Origin: a virus | Reading direction: 5' to 3' (one strand) | Length of the DNA stretch: 21,110 bases | Virus record (IMG/VR): IMGVR_UViG_3300009011_000061 | Location: 1-21,110 of that record | Part shown: positions 1,478-14,964 of the stretch, piece by piece | Layout: every line of letters starts with the position of its first letter | Numbering within the stretch: the stretch's first letter is position 1 | Program-made: the position numbers and the translations under genes | Notes under the pieces: generated by a model | Told to the model about the DNA's origin: nothing | The model's input: the letters and a program-made list of their open reading frames with translations, nothing else | Database searches by the model: none

Positions 1478-1528
1478 TGGGGTATTTGTGTACGATGTAT
1501 CGAACGATTGAGAAGGTGGTGTTGGCTA

Positions 1529-2248
1529 ATGTCTGCTATGGATTTTGATGAAAAAGGATTTTTGTCTGACTATGTTTACGAGCATAGGGCCGTTATTAGG
1601 GAAAAATACGCCGGCGGTTTTTCAGATTGTGAGCGGATATCTAGTCAAGCCCAAATACTTCTACTAAATACAGGTGTTAGCGGTAGTGATAAGCCGATGT
1701 TGTGCTCGTTCCTTTTTTTTGAGAGAACAATTCGAGCATCTCAAGCCGCAGTTCGCTTATGCGAAATAGGAATGGTACAAGAGGCGCAGGTACTTCTTAG
1801 AACTGCGTATGAAACACTCTTTCACGCATCTGCACTTATCGCCGATCCGGCGATTTTTGAAAAACTCGATTCTCACAATGACAAGGAAGACGTAAAGCAG
1901 GCTAAAGCCATTCTGGCAGATGTTCCCCCAGATCAGCTATCTGAAATAAACAAGAAACACCTGAAGGAAATTGTTGATACGCGAGCAGGCCAAACCTTTT
2001 CAGTGCATTGCTCAGCGACAGCGGCAGGAATGTTAGATCTATACAGTATTGCCTATCGAGGTCTTTCTTCCTTGGCCGGTCACGCGACATTTCGTTCTCT
2101 TGATAGGTCATTTATCGAGGAGACGAACGGGTATTCTTTGTATATGGGGCCGACTGAAAATCAATTAATTTTCACATTGAGTTTAGTTGCGCAATGTTTA
2201 ACCCTATCTATAAAAGGCCTTGAGCAAATCAAGAGCAAGGTTCAATAA
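1529..2248 (+). CDS. DUF5677-like protein
   Basis: 239 residues from ATG 1529, chosen because AGAAGG lies about 12 bases upstream; ATG 1538 is an alternative. The frame extends to a TTG at 1508, but that leader (MRRWCWL) does not look native. The core resembles DUF5677 proteins: a helical stretch with FFERTIRASQAAVRL and a following LLRTAYETLFHASALI (about residues 68-110), then a conserved-looking Y-GLSSLAGHATFRSLD near residue 190. No membrane segment or enzyme motif is evident. Its biochemical role is unknown to me. The gene is AT-richer than the phage core and converges on the 2229-2558 gene with a 20-base overlap, so it looks like a cargo gene. Family assignment is by pattern memory only. 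Confidence 0.6.
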   Translation: MSAMDFDEKGFLSDYVYEHRAVIREKYAGGFSDCERISSQAQILLLNTGVSGSDKPMLCSFLFFERTIRASQAAVRLCEIGMVQEAQVLLRTAYETLFHASALIADPAIFEKLDSHNDKEDVKQAKAILADVPPDQLSEINKKHLKEIVDTRAGQTFSVHCSATAAGMLDLYSIAYRGLSSLAGHATFRSLDRSFIEETNGYSLYMGPTENQLIFTLSLVAQCLTLSIKGLEQIKSKVQ

Positions 2249-4134: not shown

Positions 4135-4163
4135 ATTTAAGCAAGCTGAAAGTACCGTGTCAA
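4135..4163 (-). promoter_or_regulatory. PL-like leftward early promoter
   Basis: On the minus strand a perfect TTGACA (4163-4158) is followed after exactly 17 bases by TTAAAT (4140-4135), a sigma-70-type pair. Operator-like sites overlap both the -35 and the -10, so bound repressor would shut the promoter. Transcription would run left through the nut-like site. Confidence 0.7.
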
Positions 4164-4194
4164 GCATGCTTAATAATAAATTCAGATTGCTGAA
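4137..4194. promoter_or_regulatory. OL: three repressor operators
   Basis: Three 14-base near-palindromes of one type lie 21-23 bases apart: TTAAGCAAGCTGAA (4137-4150), TCAAGCATGCTTAA (4160-4173) and TTCAGATTGCTGAA (4181-4194). The same type occurs three times between the repressor gene and the Cro-like gene at 8633-8702. The arrangement equals OL1-3 of lambdoid phages, and the sites overlap the PL-like promoter. Confidence 0.75.
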
Positions 4195-4235: not shown

Positions 4236-4487
4236 TCAAGCTTCGCAGTACTCTCGCCACCCGATCCTTACCGCGCCGCTCTCAAGGCGCTCCATGCGCA
4301 CACCGCTGGTCTCTTCAATCTCCTGAAGGACTTGCTGCCATGCTTCAGCGGGTTCGGCTTCAAGCTTGGTGACCGTGATAACTTGGATCTTTTGGACTGC
4401 GGGCGCGGCTATTAGGCGCTGGATACGTCGGCCAACAGATTCATACGAGTATCTGGTCCGAGATAGGGGTGAGGCGATTTCGGGCAT
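4236..4487 (-). CDS. DUF1654 protein, SOS-regulated
   Basis: 83 residues from ATG 4487, with AAGGAG upstream; the longer frame to 4595 would run through the promoter and LexA box, so it is rejected. The product begins MPEIASPLSRTRYSYESVG and contains the DUF1654-like core RIQRLIAAPAVQKIQVITVT, then EAWQQVLQEIEETSGV and a final RMERLESGAVRIGW strand. DUF1654 proteins are common in Pseudomonas and their prophages and are often reported under LexA control; the molecular role is not known. It sits alone on the minus strand between a strong terminator and the divergent methyltransferase. A LexA box overlaps its promoter, so it should be induced by DNA damage, together with prophage induction. Confidence 0.75.
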   Translation of the reverse strand: MPEIASPLSRTRYSYESVGRRIQRLIAAPAVQKIQVITVTKLEAEPAEAWQQVLQEIEETSGVRMERLESGAVRIGWREYCEA

Positions 4488-4506
4488 GGGTTGCTCCTTG
4501 CCATTA

Positions 4507-4547
4507 CTGGATGTATATACAGTATTGGTATTGTCATATTTTGGCAA
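4507..4547 (-). promoter_or_regulatory. Promoter with LexA (SOS) box
   Basis: CTGTATATACATCCAG on the minus strand (4522-4507) has the CTG-N10-CAG form of Pseudomonas LexA sites. A -35 TTGCCA (4547-4542) and a -10 TACTGT (4524-4519) with a 17-base spacer place the box over the -10, the usual position for LexA repression. Confidence 0.75.
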
Positions 4548-4666
4548 GGAGAACGGGAAGGAGGAGCCGGGCAGGGGGCGAGCAAGACTGGCCAACCTTG
4601 AATAGTCACCTAGTGAGAGCGATCTGCTTTCATCATGACAGATACACCTTTCGCCCTAGGTCATCG

Positions 4667-4672
4667 TATAAT
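4667..4672 (+). promoter_or_regulatory. -10 element upstream of the methyltransferase gene
   Basis: A perfect TATAAT lies 22 bases before ATG 4694. No good -35 is seen at 16-18 bases upstream, so the promoter is weak or activated. Transcription from here would run opposite to the DUF1654 gene. Confidence 0.45.
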
Positions 4673-4693: not shown

Positions 4694-5692
4694 ATGCCTA
4701 CAGCAGTATCACTTTTTTCAGGATGTGGCGGCTCTGACGCGGGCATTATGGCCGCTGGATTTGACGTCATTATGGCCAACGATATTCTTGCTTACGCCAA
4801 GGATGTTTATCTTGCGAATTTCGAAGAGACTGACTATCAGCTCGGAGACATTAGAGGGATTAATAGTTTTCCGGCCGCAGACTTGCTGGTGGGATGCTAC
4901 CCGTGTCAAGGCTTTAGCCAAGGCGGTGCTCGAGAGGCTGATCGGAAGATAAATACTCTGTATGTCGAGTTCGCTCGAGCACTAAATGCTATCCAGCCGA
5001 AAGCGTTCATCGCTGAAAATGTTTCTGGCCTTCGCCGCAGCACTTATCGTCATCTGTTGGAGGATCAGTTAAAACAATTTTCTGAGGCAGGCGCACATGG
5101 CTACGACGTCTATTGGCAGCAGTTGAACGCTCACGAGTACGGTGTCGCTCAGGAACGCAAGCGTTTAGTTATCGTTGGTATCAGGAAAGATATCGGCGCT
5201 CCTTTCTCTTTTCCTCCTGCTTCCCATGGACCATTAGCAGACCAGCCATATTTCAGTATTGGACAGGCATTAGCTGGTCTTCCAGACTGGCCGGAAGGTG
5301 AGTACTGCGAAGATCCATTTCACTGGTATTACTTGTCTAGAAACCGTCGTCGCGGATGGGATGAAATCAGCAAAACTATCGTAAGTCATATGCGACATAT
5401 GCCTTTGCATCCGGTTAGCCCCGTGCTGCAACGGATTCATACGGATAGTTGGGTATTTGAATCAGAGGCTCCTGCGCGAAGATTCTCATATCGTGAGGCA
5501 GCTCGTTTGCAGGGTTTCATGCCTGAATACACGACACACGGCGGCGATATGATTTTCCCGGCAACTATAGCTGACAATAAAAAAGACTTTGCTTACAATA
5601 TGTTAAGGCACCGTTATCGCGTTATTGGTAATGCCGTTCCTCCTCCTATGTTCGAAGCTGTCGCGCGAGCCTTGCCTGATATTTGGAGCTGA
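4694..5692 (+). CDS. DNA (cytosine-5) methyltransferase
   Basis: 332 residues, ATG 4694 behind GAGGGG. All main C5-methyltransferase motifs are present in order. Motif I is SLFSGCGGSDAG (6-17) for S-adenosylmethionine. Motif IV is GCYPCQGFSQGG (67-78) with catalytic Cys71. Motif VI is ENV (108-110), motif VIII QERKR (153-157), motif IX RRFSYREAARLQGF (262-275) and motif X IGNAVPP (311-317). The target-recognition region between VIII and IX is short, as in monospecific enzymes; the target cannot be read from sequence. It converges with the minus-strand gene pair 5727-7855 and lies inside the immunity region. It probably protects the lysogen's DNA from the partner nuclease. An orphan methyltransferase is the alternative. 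The gene is AT-richer than the phage core. Confidence 0.95.
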   Translation: MPTAVSLFSGCGGSDAGIMAAGFDVIMANDILAYAKDVYLANFEETDYQLGDIRGINSFPAADLLVGCYPCQGFSQGGAREADRKINTLYVEFARALNAIQPKAFIAENVSGLRRSTYRHLLEDQLKQFSEAGAHGYDVYWQQLNAHEYGVAQERKRLVIVGIRKDIGAPFSFPPASHGPLADQPYFSIGQALAGLPDWPEGEYCEDPFHWYYLSRNRRRGWDEISKTIVSHMRHMPLHPVSPVLQRIHTDSWVFESEAPARRFSYREAARLQGFMPEYTTHGGDMIFPATIADNKKDFAYNMLRHRYRVIGNAVPPPMFEAVARALPDIWS

Positions 5693-5699
5693 TGATGTA

Positions 5700-5721
5700 G
5701 GCCGGCGTAAAGACGCTGGCC
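5700..5721. terminator. Hairpin between convergent genes
   Basis: GGCCGGCGT and ACGCTGGCC pair over nine bases (one G-U) with an AAAG loop, midway between the methyltransferase stop and the end of the minus-strand gene. No U-run follows in either direction, so termination is inferred from position. Confidence 0.45.
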
Positions 5722-5726
5722 GCATT

Positions 5727-6695
5727 CTACGAGTTATACCTGGTAGCCACTAGGTCAATAGTTGAAGAGATTTGGTCGCCAAACTTATCTCTGAAATGCA
5801 AGGCATTTTCTTCGGCCACTTTTGAAATCCTCAATCTGTCGAATGTTATTCCCGCTCTTCTGCATACGTCAGAAAATATTGCGTGACCTGGGATGTGGTG
5901 AGGTACCGAGAAGGCTCTCAAAAATTTGGCAATCGACACTGGATTTATCCACCTTTCTAATCTTTCGACCTGTAGGTCGTTAAACTTGCTTTCCCAGTCG
6001 TCTCCACATGCGCATTGGCCAAGAATGAATAGTTGACCCATTCTGAAGTCTCCAAATGGCTTCCATACCACAAAGTCTAATCCCTCGTCCTTGGGCGCTG
6101 TTGGAGACTCCCCGTCTTTCAAATGTACGGTCGGAATCCATGGAAATTCGCCTTTCGTCAATTCGTTCACGCGCTCCATTAGAGCCTTGAAGTTTGTGGG
6201 ACGCTCGATCGGATTATGCGAAGGGGCGCCTGTTCGAATGCCTTCAGCGGAGTGGCCTAGATAGCATTTCGCCACTTCAGTCACTACCAACTCAAACAAA
6301 ATAGGGAGTTGATTGAAAGGCTTGCTTGAGAGGTTTTTCTGTAAACTAGTTACTAGGCAAAGCTCGTAAATTAGTGTCTCGCTAGGGTTGTAATGAAGGG
6401 AGTTTCCCTCTCTGACAAAGGGGTACGAGGCAGCGCCCAAGCTTATGCGTCTATCTATCTCCTGTATTACAGGCCCTGTCGCCATGTCCAGCGCGAACTC
6501 TTCATCACGCCAAGTGTACCCATGCTCAGGCAAGTCGGAATGGTGCTCATCAGCGATAATATCGTCAGCCAAGCCCACGTCGATAGGAGTAACGCCTCTT
6601 TTTAGAGCATTTAGTTCTGCTTCGTCTGCGTTTTTGGATGGCTTGAATAAAACTCCTCGTTCATCCCAGCGATATAAATCTGGTATGTAGCTCAT
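5727..6695 (-). CDS. Putative nuclease of a methyltransferase-ParB cassette
   Basis: 322 residues, start ATG 6695 overlapping the stop of the ParB-like gene (ATGA), so translation is coupled. I do not know a named family with confidence. The middle shows a pattern like a PD-(D/E)XK-type core: FELVV with Glu135 on a helix, then DEGLDFVVWKPFGD with Asp207, then GQLFILGQCACGDDW with Gln227 and a Lys at 236. The spacing fits E-D-QxxK rather than a canonical D-ExK, so catalysis is uncertain. The N-terminal part (WRDEEFALDMATGPVIQEID) is helical and probably used for DNA or partner contact. No membrane segment. Together with the C5-methyltransferase and the ParB-like protein it could form a restriction or defence system. 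Nuclease role is inference. Confidence 0.6.
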   Translation of the reverse strand: MSYIPDLYRWDERGVLFKPSKNADEAELNALKRGVTPIDVGLADDIIADEHHSDLPEHGYTWRDEEFALDMATGPVIQEIDRRISLGAASYPFVREGNSLHYNPSETLIYELCLVTSLQKNLSSKPFNQLPILFELVVTEVAKCYLGHSAEGIRTGAPSHNPIERPTNFKALMERVNELTKGEFPWIPTVHLKDGESPTAPKDEGLDFVVWKPFGDFRMGQLFILGQCACGDDWESKFNDLQVERLERWINPVSIAKFLRAFSVPHHIPGHAIFSDVCRRAGITFDRLRISKVAEENALHFRDKFGDQISSTIDLVATRYNS

Positions 6696-7855
6696 TCAAG
6701 AAAATCCGTTGTGTCCAGGTCGCGGAGTGATCTAAATAAACTAGCGCTTAATTGTGCGATGTCTCGTGTTTTATTCAGCATAAGGGCCGCATCATTTTTT
6801 TCCAATCCACCCTCTGACACAATTTTCAACGCGCTCGTGAGTGCGTTTTCAGCTTCGCTCATCGATATGGCAAACTGATCTATAGGAGATTTTGAAAGAG
6901 CCTCAATTTGTTCAATCGTCTTCCCCGCGCGGAGAAGTTCTCTTTTGTTGGGGTCGGCAATGGCGTTCGCGAGGGCGCCCAGCTGGCGAGAATCGCTTAT
7001 CAGTCCGTTCCGCGCCTTACTCCTATCACCAAACATATAGCTGATAGCTGCCGCAGAATCAGCGGTTCGTCCTTTTGGGATAGGTTTTTTGTTGGTTGGA
7101 TCAAATTCCCCAAGATCTAAATAATTACGGACTGGGCTATAGTCTAAAAACGTATACACCCAAGAGAAAGGGAAGTCTGGATTGCTTCCTCGCCCTTTGC
7201 GCAAGCTGTCCGCAGGTATGAACAAACCCTCATCACGCAACTGATTTATGAAATAGTAGCCTTCAAGCAGTCGCTGAATAGTTCGGTTTTTATCACCGGT
7301 TACTTCAGCAATCTGCTGTAATGTCATTTCTCCACTAGAGACAACGTCGTCGATCCATGAGGCTTTTGCGTAAGAGTCCCAAGCCTTGGCTGACATGATA
7401 TGTCTTACACCAAGATATGCATTTAGCTTTAGGGAGTTATCGCCTGCTTCGAAAACATGAACTGGAATTTCAGTTTTTTCATTCCAGTCAGTTTTTTTAC
7501 TTTTAAGCACATCTGCGAAGCGTTTTTTTTGGTTAGTCGCTCTATCTGCACCAGCGAGAATCAGGCACGCCGAAAGTCTTCGATTGCCTTCTACTACGGT
7601 AAATGTACCGTCTAGTTCGCGCCGCGCGATAAGCGGTTCAGCTTCAAAATATCCATTATAAGCTAATGAGCTTATAACATCCTCAACACCAAAATTTTCG
7701 ACGATGAAGTCTAGAATATCCACCTGGTTGCCCCGACCGCCTTTCTCCACGCCAAAACGGGGGTTACGACTGTCCAAGCGCAACTTATCCAGAGCTATGT
7801 AAAGAATCGGGACTTTGTTTGGAAATGGACCGCTGGCTTTTTTTGCTGTGCTCAT
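6692..7855 (-). CDS. ParB/Srx-like N-terminal domain protein with HTH
   Basis: 387 residues from ATG 7855; the ribosome binding site is weak. The first 100 residues show the ParB/Srx fold: LDKLRLDSRNPRF (22-34), then EAEPLIARRELDGTF and the signature VVEGNRRLSAC (87-97), equivalent to the G-ERR box where ParB proteins bind CTP. Around 176-200 a helix-turn-helix follows (EMTLQQIAEVTGDKNRTIQR). The remaining 190 residues are helical and not assigned. It is not a chromosome- or plasmid-type ParB: no ParA gene is near and the length and C-terminus differ. It forms an operon with the putative nuclease and probably supplies DNA recognition or NTP-gated loading. That function is inference. Confidence 0.8.
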   Translation of the reverse strand: MSTAKKASGPFPNKVPILYIALDKLRLDSRNPRFGVEKGGRGNQVDILDFIVENFGVEDVISSLAYNGYFEAEPLIARRELDGTFTVVEGNRRLSACLILAGADRATNQKKRFADVLKSKKTDWNEKTEIPVHVFEAGDNSLKLNAYLGVRHIMSAKAWDSYAKASWIDDVVSSGEMTLQQIAEVTGDKNRTIQRLLEGYYFINQLRDEGLFIPADSLRKGRGSNPDFPFSWVYTFLDYSPVRNYLDLGEFDPTNKKPIPKGRTADSAAAISYMFGDRSKARNGLISDSRQLGALANAIADPNKRELLRAGKTIEQIEALSKSPIDQFAISMSEAENALTSALKIVSEGGLEKNDAALMLNKTRDIAQLSASLFRSLRDLDTTDFLE

Positions 7856-7968
7856 ATTTTTCCGCTGCTAGGTCGTAGGCTGAAGGTCGTACGCGTGTAA
7901 GCCGTCTGTTGCTTTGGCTGGGCTTGCGTTGTGGGCTGGCACAAATCGAGCCGCTGAGCGAGTTTTCA

Positions 7969-8622
7969 TCATAGCTTTTGTAAAGCCCTGACCACCACGC
8001 CCACGATCCGGCAATTCTCATCGAAGGGCTCAATGGGGTAGGCCGGGTTCAGCGGTTTCAGGAAGAAATTCCCGCCGTCTTCCACCAGTTTTTTAAAAGT
8101 AGCCTTGTCGCTGTCTGGGCGCTTTGCGACCACTAGCTTTCCTGAGTGCGCCTCAGCTTCCGTATCGACCAGGATAAAGGTTCCGTCAGTGATGCTCTGA
8201 CCAACCGGTGACGTCATCGAGTCGCCGACGACCTTCAGCCAAAAAGCGGCGCCCTTCGAATCGTAATCGGACAGTTCGTAGTGATCGGAGAATCCGACCG
8301 GGTAGGGCTCCACGGCTTCAGCCCAAGCGCCGGCGGCTACCCAGCTGATAACTGGGTAGCGGTAGGACTCGATAGGCTGGCGGGCTTCTCCGACGTTTGA
8401 ATCGGCTTTCTCTACCTCGTTACCCTCGCCAATGGCCAGCCACTCGGCACGAAATCCGGTGGCCTTTGCAAGCGCGTACAGGTTTTCCGGCCTGAGGCTT
8501 TTGCTCTCGCCGGTGATCCACTGTGTTACGGCTGAGTTTGCAACGCCGCAAAGCGAGGCAATTTCACCCTTCTTTTTCCCACTGAGCGCGATGGCCCGGG
8601 CAATACGTTCATGTCTTTCCAT
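7969..8622 (-). CDS. CI-type repressor, S24 (LexA-like) peptidase
   Basis: 217 residues, ATG 8622. Residues 5-65 are an HTH (KKKGEIASLCGVANSAVTQW) of the XRE type. The C-terminal half is the S24 self-cleaving domain: cleavage site Ala97-Gly98 (WVAAGAW), catalytic Ser135 in GDSM and catalytic Lys177 in ATFKKL, with the usual spacing of about 40 residues. It should hold the lysogenic state by binding the six operators at 4137-4194 and 8633-8702, and be inactivated by RecA-stimulated autocleavage on DNA damage. Transcribed leftward, with the Cro-like gene divergent. The ParB-like gene lies about 110 bases downstream on the same strand and may be partly co-transcribed with it in the lysogen. Confidence 0.92.
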   Translation of the reverse strand: MERHERIARAIALSGKKKGEIASLCGVANSAVTQWITGESKSLRPENLYALAKATGFRAEWLAIGEGNEVEKADSNVGEARQPIESYRYPVISWVAAGAWAEAVEPYPVGFSDHYELSDYDSKGAAFWLKVVGDSMTSPVGQSITDGTFILVDTEAEAHSGKLVVAKRPDSDKATFKKLVEDGGNFFLKPLNPAYPIEPFDENCRIVGVVVRALQKL

Positions 8623-8632
8623 GGACTCAATA

Positions 8633-8702
8633 TTAAGTTAACTGAATTTAAGCATGCAGTAGGTGGAAAACATCGTTGACGCAATAAATTAAGCATGCTG
8701 AA
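8633..8702. promoter_or_regulatory. OR operators and divergent PR/PRM
   Basis: Three sites of the OL type lie here: TTAAGTTAACTGAA (8633-8646), TTAAGCATGCAGTA (8648-8661) and TTAAGCATGCTGAA (8689-8702). A rightward -35 TTGACG (8675-8680) followed after 17 bases by TGAAAT (8698-8703) is the likely PR and is overlapped by the third site. Leftward PRM elements are less clear. The first two sites lie close to the repressor start. Confidence 0.75.
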
Positions 8703-13899: not shown

Positions 13900-14964
13900 A
13901 TGGAATCAAATTTTCGTTATAAGCTGGCTTTTCATTTGAAGCGCATGTTCATAGTGCTAGGTGCTTTGAGCGGCACTTTTTCTATGTTGCTTCTTTTTTC
14001 TGAACGGTTTAGCTATTTTATTGGCGGCTCGGGAGAGTTTAACTACGGCGGGTCTACAGCGATAGCTTCTTTGCTGGTGTCGGCAATATCATTTTCTTTG
14101 GTTTATTTGCAGTCCGGTGCCTCGTCATCTAGCGTTGAAGCTGATCTTTCAAATAGAGCATATCTAAACAAGGCTAATAAGGCTCTTGAGGAGGTTGAGC
14201 GTAGAAATTTAGAATTTACAAATAAGCTCACTCTACTAGAAGAGAGGCTTGATGAGGCTGAATTCTCAACAGGGTTGACTGCAGAGGAAAGGGGGCTGGT
14301 AGTAAATGGCGCAATTAAGTCTGCAAGCTCAGAGGCAATAAAAGAGGTTTTTGCCCTTGAAGCTGAAAAATTCGAATCACACCTGGCGGATAATTTAGGT
14401 TTGGATCGATTGGCATCAATTTCAAAAAGTAGTGTGGAACGCTTAATGCGCGAAATATCCGACCTTCGCCTCCGGTCGAATATAAATCTCCTAATAGGTA
14501 TGACCATAACCGCAGGTGGGCTGTGGTTGCTGTGGACTACAGTATCAATAGTCGATGCCTCCGAGCTTCTAAAAACTCTTGCCTCCGGTGGGGCGGAGTC
14601 AGATTCGCAGTTCTTAAAGAACTTGATTCTTCCAATCATTCCCCGAGTGCTATTAGTTGTTTTTGTCGAGGTTTTTGCTTATTTCTTTTTGCGGTTATAC
14701 CGAAACGGTCTTTCTGAAATTAAATATTTTCAAAATGAACTGACTAATATCGAGTCGAAGCTGACCGCAATCGAGTTCGCATATGTGACGAAAAACAACA
14801 GTGCTCTCAAGGCAGCAATTGAAGCCTTGTCAAGCACTGAGCGAAATTTTGTTTTGGACAAGGGGCAGACTACAGTCGAATTGGAAAGGGCTAGGTCTGA
14901 AACGGAGTTAAGTCGGAATTTGGTTAAAGCTCTTCCAAAAATCCTTTTGGAACGAAAGAAATAA
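13900..14964 (+). CDS. Four-helix membrane protein with coiled coils (probable moron)
   Basis: 354 residues, ATG 13900; a purine-rich stretch upstream gives only a weak ribosome site. Four hydrophobic segments: about 16-33, 52-71, 196-218 and 241-266. Between the second and third lies a long helical, charged region (80-190) that includes a coiled coil (ANKALEEVERRNLEFTNKLT and further), and after the fourth a second coiled coil (LSEIKYFQNELTNIESKLTA and further). The layout suggests a two-hairpin membrane anchor with cytoplasmic coiled-coil arms. AT-richer than its neighbours, between the Q-like antiterminator and the late terminators, so it is a typical moron site. No catalytic motif. A role in superinfection exclusion or abortive infection is only a guess. 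Confidence 0.8.
   Translation: MESNFRYKLAFHLKRMFIVLGALSGTFSMLLLFSERFSYFIGGSGEFNYGGSTAIASLLVSAISFSLVYLQSGASSSSVEADLSNRAYLNKANKALEEVERRNLEFTNKLTLLEERLDEAEFSTGLTAEERGLVVNGAIKSASSEAIKEVFALEAEKFESHLADNLGLDRLASISKSSVERLMREISDLRLRSNINLLIGMTITAGGLWLLWTTVSIVDASELLKTLASGGAESDSQFLKNLILPIIPRVLLVVFVEVFAYFFLRLYRNGLSEIKYFQNELTNIESKLTAIEFAYVTKNNSALKAAIEALSSTERNFVLDKGQTTVELERARSETELSRNLVKALPKILLERKK

Follow-up and report, generated by a model that had tools for sequence, protein, structure and literature searches.

Which function is carried by a DNA methyltransferase (MTase), a putative nuclease and a ParB-like protein that are encoded side by side in the immunity region of a phage? Such a cassette occupies positions 4,694 to 7,855 of the virus record IMGVR_UViG_3300009011_000061, of which positions 1 to 21,110 were analyzed (21,110 nucleotides, hereafter the window). 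All named phages with DNA matching the window (14/14) were Pseudomonas phages. A preliminary description, made from the letters of the DNA, had proposed a restriction-like or defense module in which the MTase protects self DNA and the ParB-like protein serves as the DNA recognition part or switch. This is still the best-supported reading, as the trio co-occurs elsewhere and the ParB-nuclease pair is also found with other modification chemistries. We consider it probable that the cassette is a prophage-borne restriction-modification (R-M) system of unusual make-up, in which the MTase would mark self DNA, the ParB-like protein would recognize DNA and load on it, and the nuclease would cut unmarked DNA. 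The three genes are complete open reading frames (ORFs), and the arrangement first described, a complete C5 MTase gene converging on a translationally coupled pair, was borne out:

4694..5692, plus strand: C5-cytosine DNA methyltransferase, 332 amino acids (aa), predicted self-marking enzyme, M.HaeIII-like; complete ORF with a PF00145 match
5727..6695, minus strand: predicted PD-(D/E)XK nuclease, 322 aa, putative restriction effector; complete ORF
6692..7855, minus strand: ParB-like protein, 387 aa, with predicted nucleoside triphosphate (NTP)-binding ParB/Srx domain (residues about 17-154), helix-turn-helix (HTH) DNA-binding domain (about 160-300) and C-terminal helices (about 314-382); complete ORF

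The stop codon of the ParB-like gene and the start codon of the nuclease gene overlap as ATGA (6692-6695), and a gap of 34 bases separates this pair from the convergent MTase gene.

Recurrence of the trio and exchange of its modification partner

Related loci were collected by scans with an alignment of five ParB-like proteins, which covered 80 loci from GTDB genomes and 80 from IMG/VR. The nuclease gene came directly after the ParB gene in 150 of 163 ParB loci, and most of the others were contig ends or carried proteins like those of the PD-lambda-5 defense system. A C5 MTase gene was found within 1.5 kb in 119 of the 163 loci and was convergent in 87, the stop codons often lying only a few bases apart. 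A trio in the same convergent arrangement was present in phage Wphi (mth, gp96 and gp98), in Pseudomonas phage D14A and in the IMG/VR locus L004, and in dozens of phage and chromosomal loci. In the Wphi record the trio is flanked by gene A on one side and the record end on the other, which is the tin/old region described as a P2 defense hotspot (PMC9519451). DNA matching part of this Wphi stretch was found in 374 of 5,426 E. coli genomes, and most of the stretch in 103 of them.

Because these scans began from ParB, a second search was run from a nuclease profile on class, phylum and order samples (about 1,460 genomes, the samples overlapping in part). Beyond the centre genomes, matches were obtained in 17 genomes. 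Seventeen loci were fetched from 16 matching genomes (two from one of them), and one was cut by a contig end, which left 16 evaluable loci; one of these, L205, shares a contig with L015 of the ParB scan. A ParB gene adjoined the nuclease gene in 16/16, a figure that is partly conditioned by the profile having been built from ParB-adjacent nucleases, and a DNA MTase gene lay within about 1 kb in 16/16 (7 C5, 8 D12 and 1 N6/N4), a figure that is less so. Profiles were needed because searches with the single nuclease sequence missed the copies in D14A and Wphi: tblastn in named phages found none, though both phages carry one. When IMG/VR was scanned with single proteins, the nuclease gave no relatives and the ParB-like protein only two. 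The co-occurrence of ParB, nuclease and MTase far exceeds chance. A lack of co-occurrence elsewhere, named in the preliminary description as what would speak against its proposal, was thus not what the scans returned.

The modification partner itself was exchanged between loci. When 112 ParB proteins were placed in a tree, their partner class was clustered, with 25 changes against a mean of 58.7 after shuffling. All phosphorothioate-linked rows (14/14) fell into one ParB clade, nested among C5-linked ones, and this Dnd-linked clade of the ParB-nuclease pair came mostly from Bacteroidota. In locus L045, NCBIfam models identified DptG and DptH before the pair and DndB, DndC, DndD and DndE converging on it, like the MTase in the window. 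L082 has a DndC above the cut-off and a DndD relative below the cut-off converging on the pair, with no DptG or DptH in view. In such loci the pair apparently serves the phosphorothioate mark as a second or a substitute restriction half.

Further observations were made at individual loci. The pair was seen inside Dnd phosphorothioate loci in L055, L079, L009, L018 and L022, besides L045 and L082. A 1702-aa protein before ParB in L045 and L055 was considered as a DndC-D-E-HerA fusion and rejected, as only the HerA part matched and NCBIfam names the protein DptH. A protein of about 520 aa in which a DndE domain is joined to a HerA-type ATPase is encoded just 5' of the pair in L018 (5392-6963, Bacteroidota), and a homologue of about 520 aa is found in L009 (5294-6853). 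L206 (3972-8407) holds an operon of D12 MTase, ParB and nuclease on which the gene of a second, 495-aa PD-lambda-5-like ParB (6923-8407, minus strand) converges. L099 and L072 have N6-type MTase neighbors and divergent ParB proteins; the putative nuclease of L072 has a very low score (19 bits) and may belong to another family.

Exchange was also evident from the window itself. Its MTase shares 80-82% identity with the D14A and L120 enzymes, whereas for the ParB-like protein and the nuclease the identity is only 26-30%; therefore, two very different restriction halves stand beside nearly the same MTase. A five-member MTase clade had 99% support, and forcing this clade was rejected for ParB (approximately unbiased test, p-AU 5e-5) and for the nuclease (3e-6). 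These p-values are optimistic in that the group was named after the identities were known, and the identities alone make the point. The ParB-nuclease pair thus appears to be a portable restriction half, able to work alongside self marks of different chemistry. Since its partners include C5, N6 and phosphorothioate modification, the common factor is a DNA mark and not one chemistry.

Predicted folds and a proposed mechanism

The MTase matches PF00145 over its full length (residues 4-327, E 2.5e-58) and has the motifs of a C5-cytosine MTase, namely PCQ (IV), ENV (VI), QERKR (VIII) and GNAVPP (X). Its nearest solved structure is M.HaeIII (6.8e-41), and the alignment runs through the target recognition region. 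Because arginines of the window MTase align with the base-contacting arginines R225, R227 and R243 of HaeIII, a GGCC-like site can reasonably be guessed, but not more than that.

The ParB-like protein matches phrog_3694 (9e-79). The evidence for ParB from sequence is weak (TIGR00180, 0.0042; profile against Caulobacter ParB, 0.011), and with a TIGR00180 score of 16.9 bits against a cut-off of 58.45 it does not qualify as a canonical ParABS partition ParB. AlphaFold2 models of the ParB-like protein and the nuclease were built from alignments of about 100 sequences. The ParB-like model, with a predicted local distance difference test score (pLDDT) of 88.8, matched Noc (Z 10.5), KorB (Z 10.2) and Caulobacter ParB (Z 9.5) across its nucleotide-binding and HTH domains (about 200 residues for Noc and KorB; Foldseek 4e-5), and has a helical region at its C-terminal end, past these two domains. 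By predicted fold, membership in the ParB-CTPase superfamily of ParB, Noc and KorB is solid, and on this ground the earlier call of a ParB-like protein with HTH stands. In the homologue alignment D28, N31, R33, E73, N91, R92, R93, H152, W159 and K164 are invariant (105 sequences for N91, R92 and R93). The P-type motif reads V-V-E-G-N-R-R-L and a second motif Y-x-G-x-R-H-I.

The nuclease matches phrog_14650 and phrog_3984, two families of unknown function. Among 103 homologues, most of which are only about 20% identical to the window protein, R83 and D207 (103/103) are invariant, and E135 (96/103), Q227 (102/103), C228 (97/103), W234 and K237 (102/103) are nearly so; near-absolute conservation extends to R287 and R289. 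The E...D...GQC pattern noticed in the preliminary description is thus borne out, and it falls on a PD-(D/E)XK-like predicted fold. For the model (pLDDT 84.9), Foldseek matched MspJI (4.5e-4), and the top rows of VIA-align were MspJI (Z 7.2), FokI, N.BspD6I, NgoMIV and AspBHI (Z 5.8-7.2); the top matches were all restriction-type PD-(D/E)XK enzymes apart from one uncharacterized protein (1y88). The resemblance covers the catalytic part of MspJI (residues 266-440) and not its 5-methylcytosine (5mC) reader. A profile match aligned DGGxD...QC of the nuclease with SGDGGVDF...GQAK of MspJI (E 0.041). Because of this match and the uniform list of restriction enzymes, a PD-(D/E)XK fold nearest MspJI is credible for the modeled protein, despite Z-scores below 8. 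E135, D207 and Q227 are in place and the lysine of QxK is absent. At the position of the MspJI Lys, right after QC, the homologue alignment shows mostly Ala or Gly. The catalytic lysine is thus probably a displaced one, for which the conserved K237 further on is a candidate; otherwise, this would be an unusual nuclease. In L209 an in-frame stop splits the nuclease gene (5653-6564, minus strand), and the neighboring ParB and C5 MTase genes are intact. A broken effector with the mark kept is expected if the nuclease is costly.

These parts suggest how the cassette may work. The MTase, which is encoded on the opposite strand with its own start, would mark self DNA, that is, the lysogen and the prophage, probably at a GGCC-like site. 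Recognition and loading would fall to the ParB-like protein, which would bind DNA through its HTH domain and, by its nucleotide-binding domain, presumably close on it to form a clamp gated by nucleotide. When bound to DNA that lacks the mark, the ParB-like protein would recruit or activate the nuclease encoded right after it, which could then cut incoming phage DNA and protect the lysogen. Because the pair follows cI on the cI strand, we infer that ParB and nuclease are probably made together with cI in the lysogen. In a broader form, which we find plausible though somewhat short of probable, the ParB-nuclease pair would be a mark-agnostic, helicase-free restriction half and a restriction architecture in its own right: its clamp would go onto DNA at unmarked sites and slide along it to deliver the nuclease, and in evolution the pair would have been coupled to 5-methylcytosine, N6-methyladenine and phosphorothioate.

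Several points weigh against the R-M reading. No modification gene was recognized nearby in 9 of 111 dereplicated loci. The nucleotide motif of the ParB-like protein (GNRR, YxGxRHI) is non-canonical, and its ligand may be cytidine triphosphate (CTP), ATP, GTP or none. The Z-scores of the nuclease are low enough that the similarity in arrangement may carry little meaning, and the canonical third catalytic residue is absent, QAK of MspJI being QCA in the window. The QCA motif would also suit a decayed or inactive remnant; against this, for which we see only a very slim chance, stand the intact ORFs and the near-absolute conservation of R83, E135, D207, Q227, K237, R287 and R289 over such distant homologues. 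The main rival explanation is that defense is licensed by modification: the pair would act only with the host mark, or the nuclease would cut marked DNA, and the MTase would be a required co-factor, not a shield. It draws on the nearest nuclease fold being that of MspJI, a known 5mC-dependent endonuclease, and on Dnd-linked PbeABCD, which acts only with phosphorothioate present (PMC6459918). However, the likeness to MspJI leaves out the 5mC reader, a nuclease that attacks marked DNA would be ruinous to its host when encoded next to an active cognate MTase, and pairing with C5, N6 and phosphorothioate marks suits a block-by-mark rule better, so that we regard licensing as unlikely.

Abortive infection is, in our judgment, distinctly unlikely as well. 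Here the MTase would silence the ParB-nuclease pair, and infection, through mark loss or inhibition of the MTase by the phage, would release the nuclease, which would then cleave the chromosome, with death of the cell as the outcome. PD-lambda-5 has been described as a compacted 'RM+Abi' system (PMC9519451), which agrees with such a role. The balance between MTase and effector could shift, as they are encoded on opposite strands with separate starts. However, convergent genes are common in ordinary R-M systems too, and the sequence offers no hint of any non-DNA trigger. Anti-restriction is a frequent role of phage MTases, and the MTase might accordingly shield phage DNA from host restriction, with ParB and nuclease as an unrelated pair for prophage maintenance or regulation; but the chromosomal pairs are also tied to MTase or Dnd genes, an MTase gene was beside the pair in 16/16 nuclease-profile loci, and no ParA gene was recognized beside the cassette, which makes this explanation very improbable.

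Should the R-M reading hold, recognition and communication in a restriction system would be the task of a clamp of the ParB type, familiar from chromosome segregation, and its sliding would replace the helicase motor of type I and type III enzymes. Partners as different as C5, N6 and phosphorothioate modification beside one restriction half raise the question of which mark blocks, and how one kind of reader could be blocked by three chemistries. A function is also suggested for phage families listed as unknown (phrog_3694, 3984 and 14650).

A cargo hotspot beside the cI gene

The surroundings of the cassette comprise the following features:

7969..8622, minus strand: CI-type repressor (HTH and S24 peptidase; PF00717, 3e-27; phrog_4, 8e-51)
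4137..4173: left operator cluster (OL-like), with TTAAGCATGC exact at 4164 (minus strand) and one-mismatch copies at 4160 (overlapping) and 4137
8648..8702: right operator cluster (OR-like), right of cI, with TTAAGCATGC exact at 8648 and 8689 and a one-mismatch copy at 8693 (minus strand)
4236..4595, minus strand: conserved 119-aa gene, phrog_2707, at the far end of the cargo interval that extends downstream from cI; it marks this border in most of the 80 related phages compared
4667..4672, plus strand: TATAAT, a weak -10-like element 21 bases 5' of the MTase start, without a good -35, read from the sequence and missed by the promoter scan

On the minus strand, the ParB-nuclease pair is immediately preceded by the cI gene. 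Allowing up to two mismatches, TTAAGCATGC had 18 matches over the window, which is not above chance; the case for operators rests on the exact copies and on where these lie, next to cI and to the leftward operon. As exact copies lie on either side of the cassette, its position between OL and OR is upheld, inside a lambda-like immunity region. A promoter and terminator scan of the window gave signal no greater than in shuffles.

For the hotspot survey, 80 IMG/VR phages of Pseudomonas type with a related cI (L215-L294) were compared over the interval from cI to the phrog_2707 gene. The interval ranged from about 60 bases to 5.4 kb; 21 of the 80 phages had no cargo gene of at least 120 aa, and the remainder showed 57 different configurations, with 98 protein clusters as cargo. 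Comparison of 44 cargo proteins with PADLOC and Pfam gave matches to RmrA, AriA, CapP, HEC-04, HipA-like and RhuM proteins, D12 and C5 MTases, and one RexA homologue (PF15969, 5.3e-54), which lies in this interval of one sibling phage. The parallel with lambda rexAB drawn earlier holds for position. The window cassette is one filling of a cargo hotspot with defense-type genes beside cI, and such a prophage hotspot is hereby flagged in Pseudomonas-type phages.

The guanine-cytosine content was 0.44-0.49 across 4.5-8.0 kb against 0.55-0.64 in most of the window. The cassette is AT-richer than the phage core, as had been stated, yet the stretches at 1.5-2.5 kb and 13.5-15 kb are as AT-rich. In the latter, right of the integrase block, an AT-rich gene (13900-14964, plus strand) encodes a 354-aa predicted coiled-coil or membrane protein, for which no family was above the cut-off; it is a possible second cargo gene. 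Near the left end, an AT-rich gene with a DUF5677 match (1508-2248, plus strand; 2.2e-17) runs against the leftward operon and is likely cargo too.

Comparison with known defense systems

The nearest tested relative of the cassette is PD-lambda-5, a system reported to be prophage-borne and to give broad phage protection (Vassallo et al. 2022, PMC9519451). Both encode a ParB-fold protein with a DNA MTase, and the N-terminal 150-190 residues or so are homologous; the match of the window protein to PD-Lambda-5_A (5e-14) covers residues 19-205 on 13-194 of 473 and is not full length. However, the PD-Lambda-5_A-type proteins fetched have about 450-540 aa, another C-terminus, no homologue of the window nuclease and a D12 N6-adenine MTase as partner, and PD-lambda-5 consists of two genes, whereas the window cassette has three genes and a C5 MTase (PF00145). 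Membership was rejected, given an N-terminal match only and no D12 partner; a homologue of the nuclease in the PD-Lambda-5_A C-terminus was likewise rejected, as no nuclease-like part was found there.

Like type II R-M systems such as HaeIII, the cassette has a stand-alone C5 MTase, near M.HaeIII, side by side with a predicted PD-(D/E)XK nuclease gene. It differs by its constant third gene of ParB-CTPase fold, by a nuclease nearest MspJI with a non-standard QxK, and by a restriction half that also occurs with N6 and phosphorothioate marks. With MspJI and AspBHI the nuclease shares the predicted catalytic fold, but it is paired with an MTase, has its Lys outside the QxK position, and has no recognized 5mC reader domain. 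The Dnd systems with DndFGH or PbeABCD also place a portable restriction half beside a modification module, and the ParB-nuclease pair occurs in such loci; in contrast to these, the window cassette has no helicase or translocase (DptH, PbeA). No Dnd genes (DndC/DndD) were found among the scanned window proteins, whereas they are present in the relatives L045 and L082. As with lambda rexAB, the cassette is cargo between operators, downstream of cI on the cI strand, but no sequence relation was found, and a PF15969 RexA search of the cassette proteins gave no match. The Wphi mth-gp96-gp98 and D14A cassettes have the same three genes in the same convergent order; their ParB and nuclease are only about 26-30% identical to those of the window, and they were deposited without a function as a system.

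PADLOC assigned PD-Lambda-5_A (N-terminus) and the candidate PDC-M38A to the ParB-like protein and DruM2 (4e-105) to the MTase, and had no name for the window nuclease. Despite the DruM2 match, membership in Druantia was rejected, as no ORF large enough for a DruE-type helicase lies beside the cassette. The PDC-M38A models seem mixed (one fits ParB, others hotspot cargo proteins), so nothing was drawn from the name, and no mention of PDC-M38 was found in the literature searched. In the parts consulted, a survey of Dnd neighborhoods mentions ParB only as DndB (PMC10853773), and a 2025 survey of ParB-CTPase folds reports fusions to methyltransferases and binding of ATP, GTP or CTP (PMC12704722), those parts containing no description of the three-gene cassette. 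The earlier remark on the absence of a named system with exactly these genes still holds in PADLOC 2023 and the literature searched, though there are close kin in PD-lambda-5, the PDC-M38A candidate and the unnamed Wphi gp96/gp98. We call the cassette a relative of known defense systems and a member of no named one, an R-M variant that would use a ParB clamp instead of a helicase.

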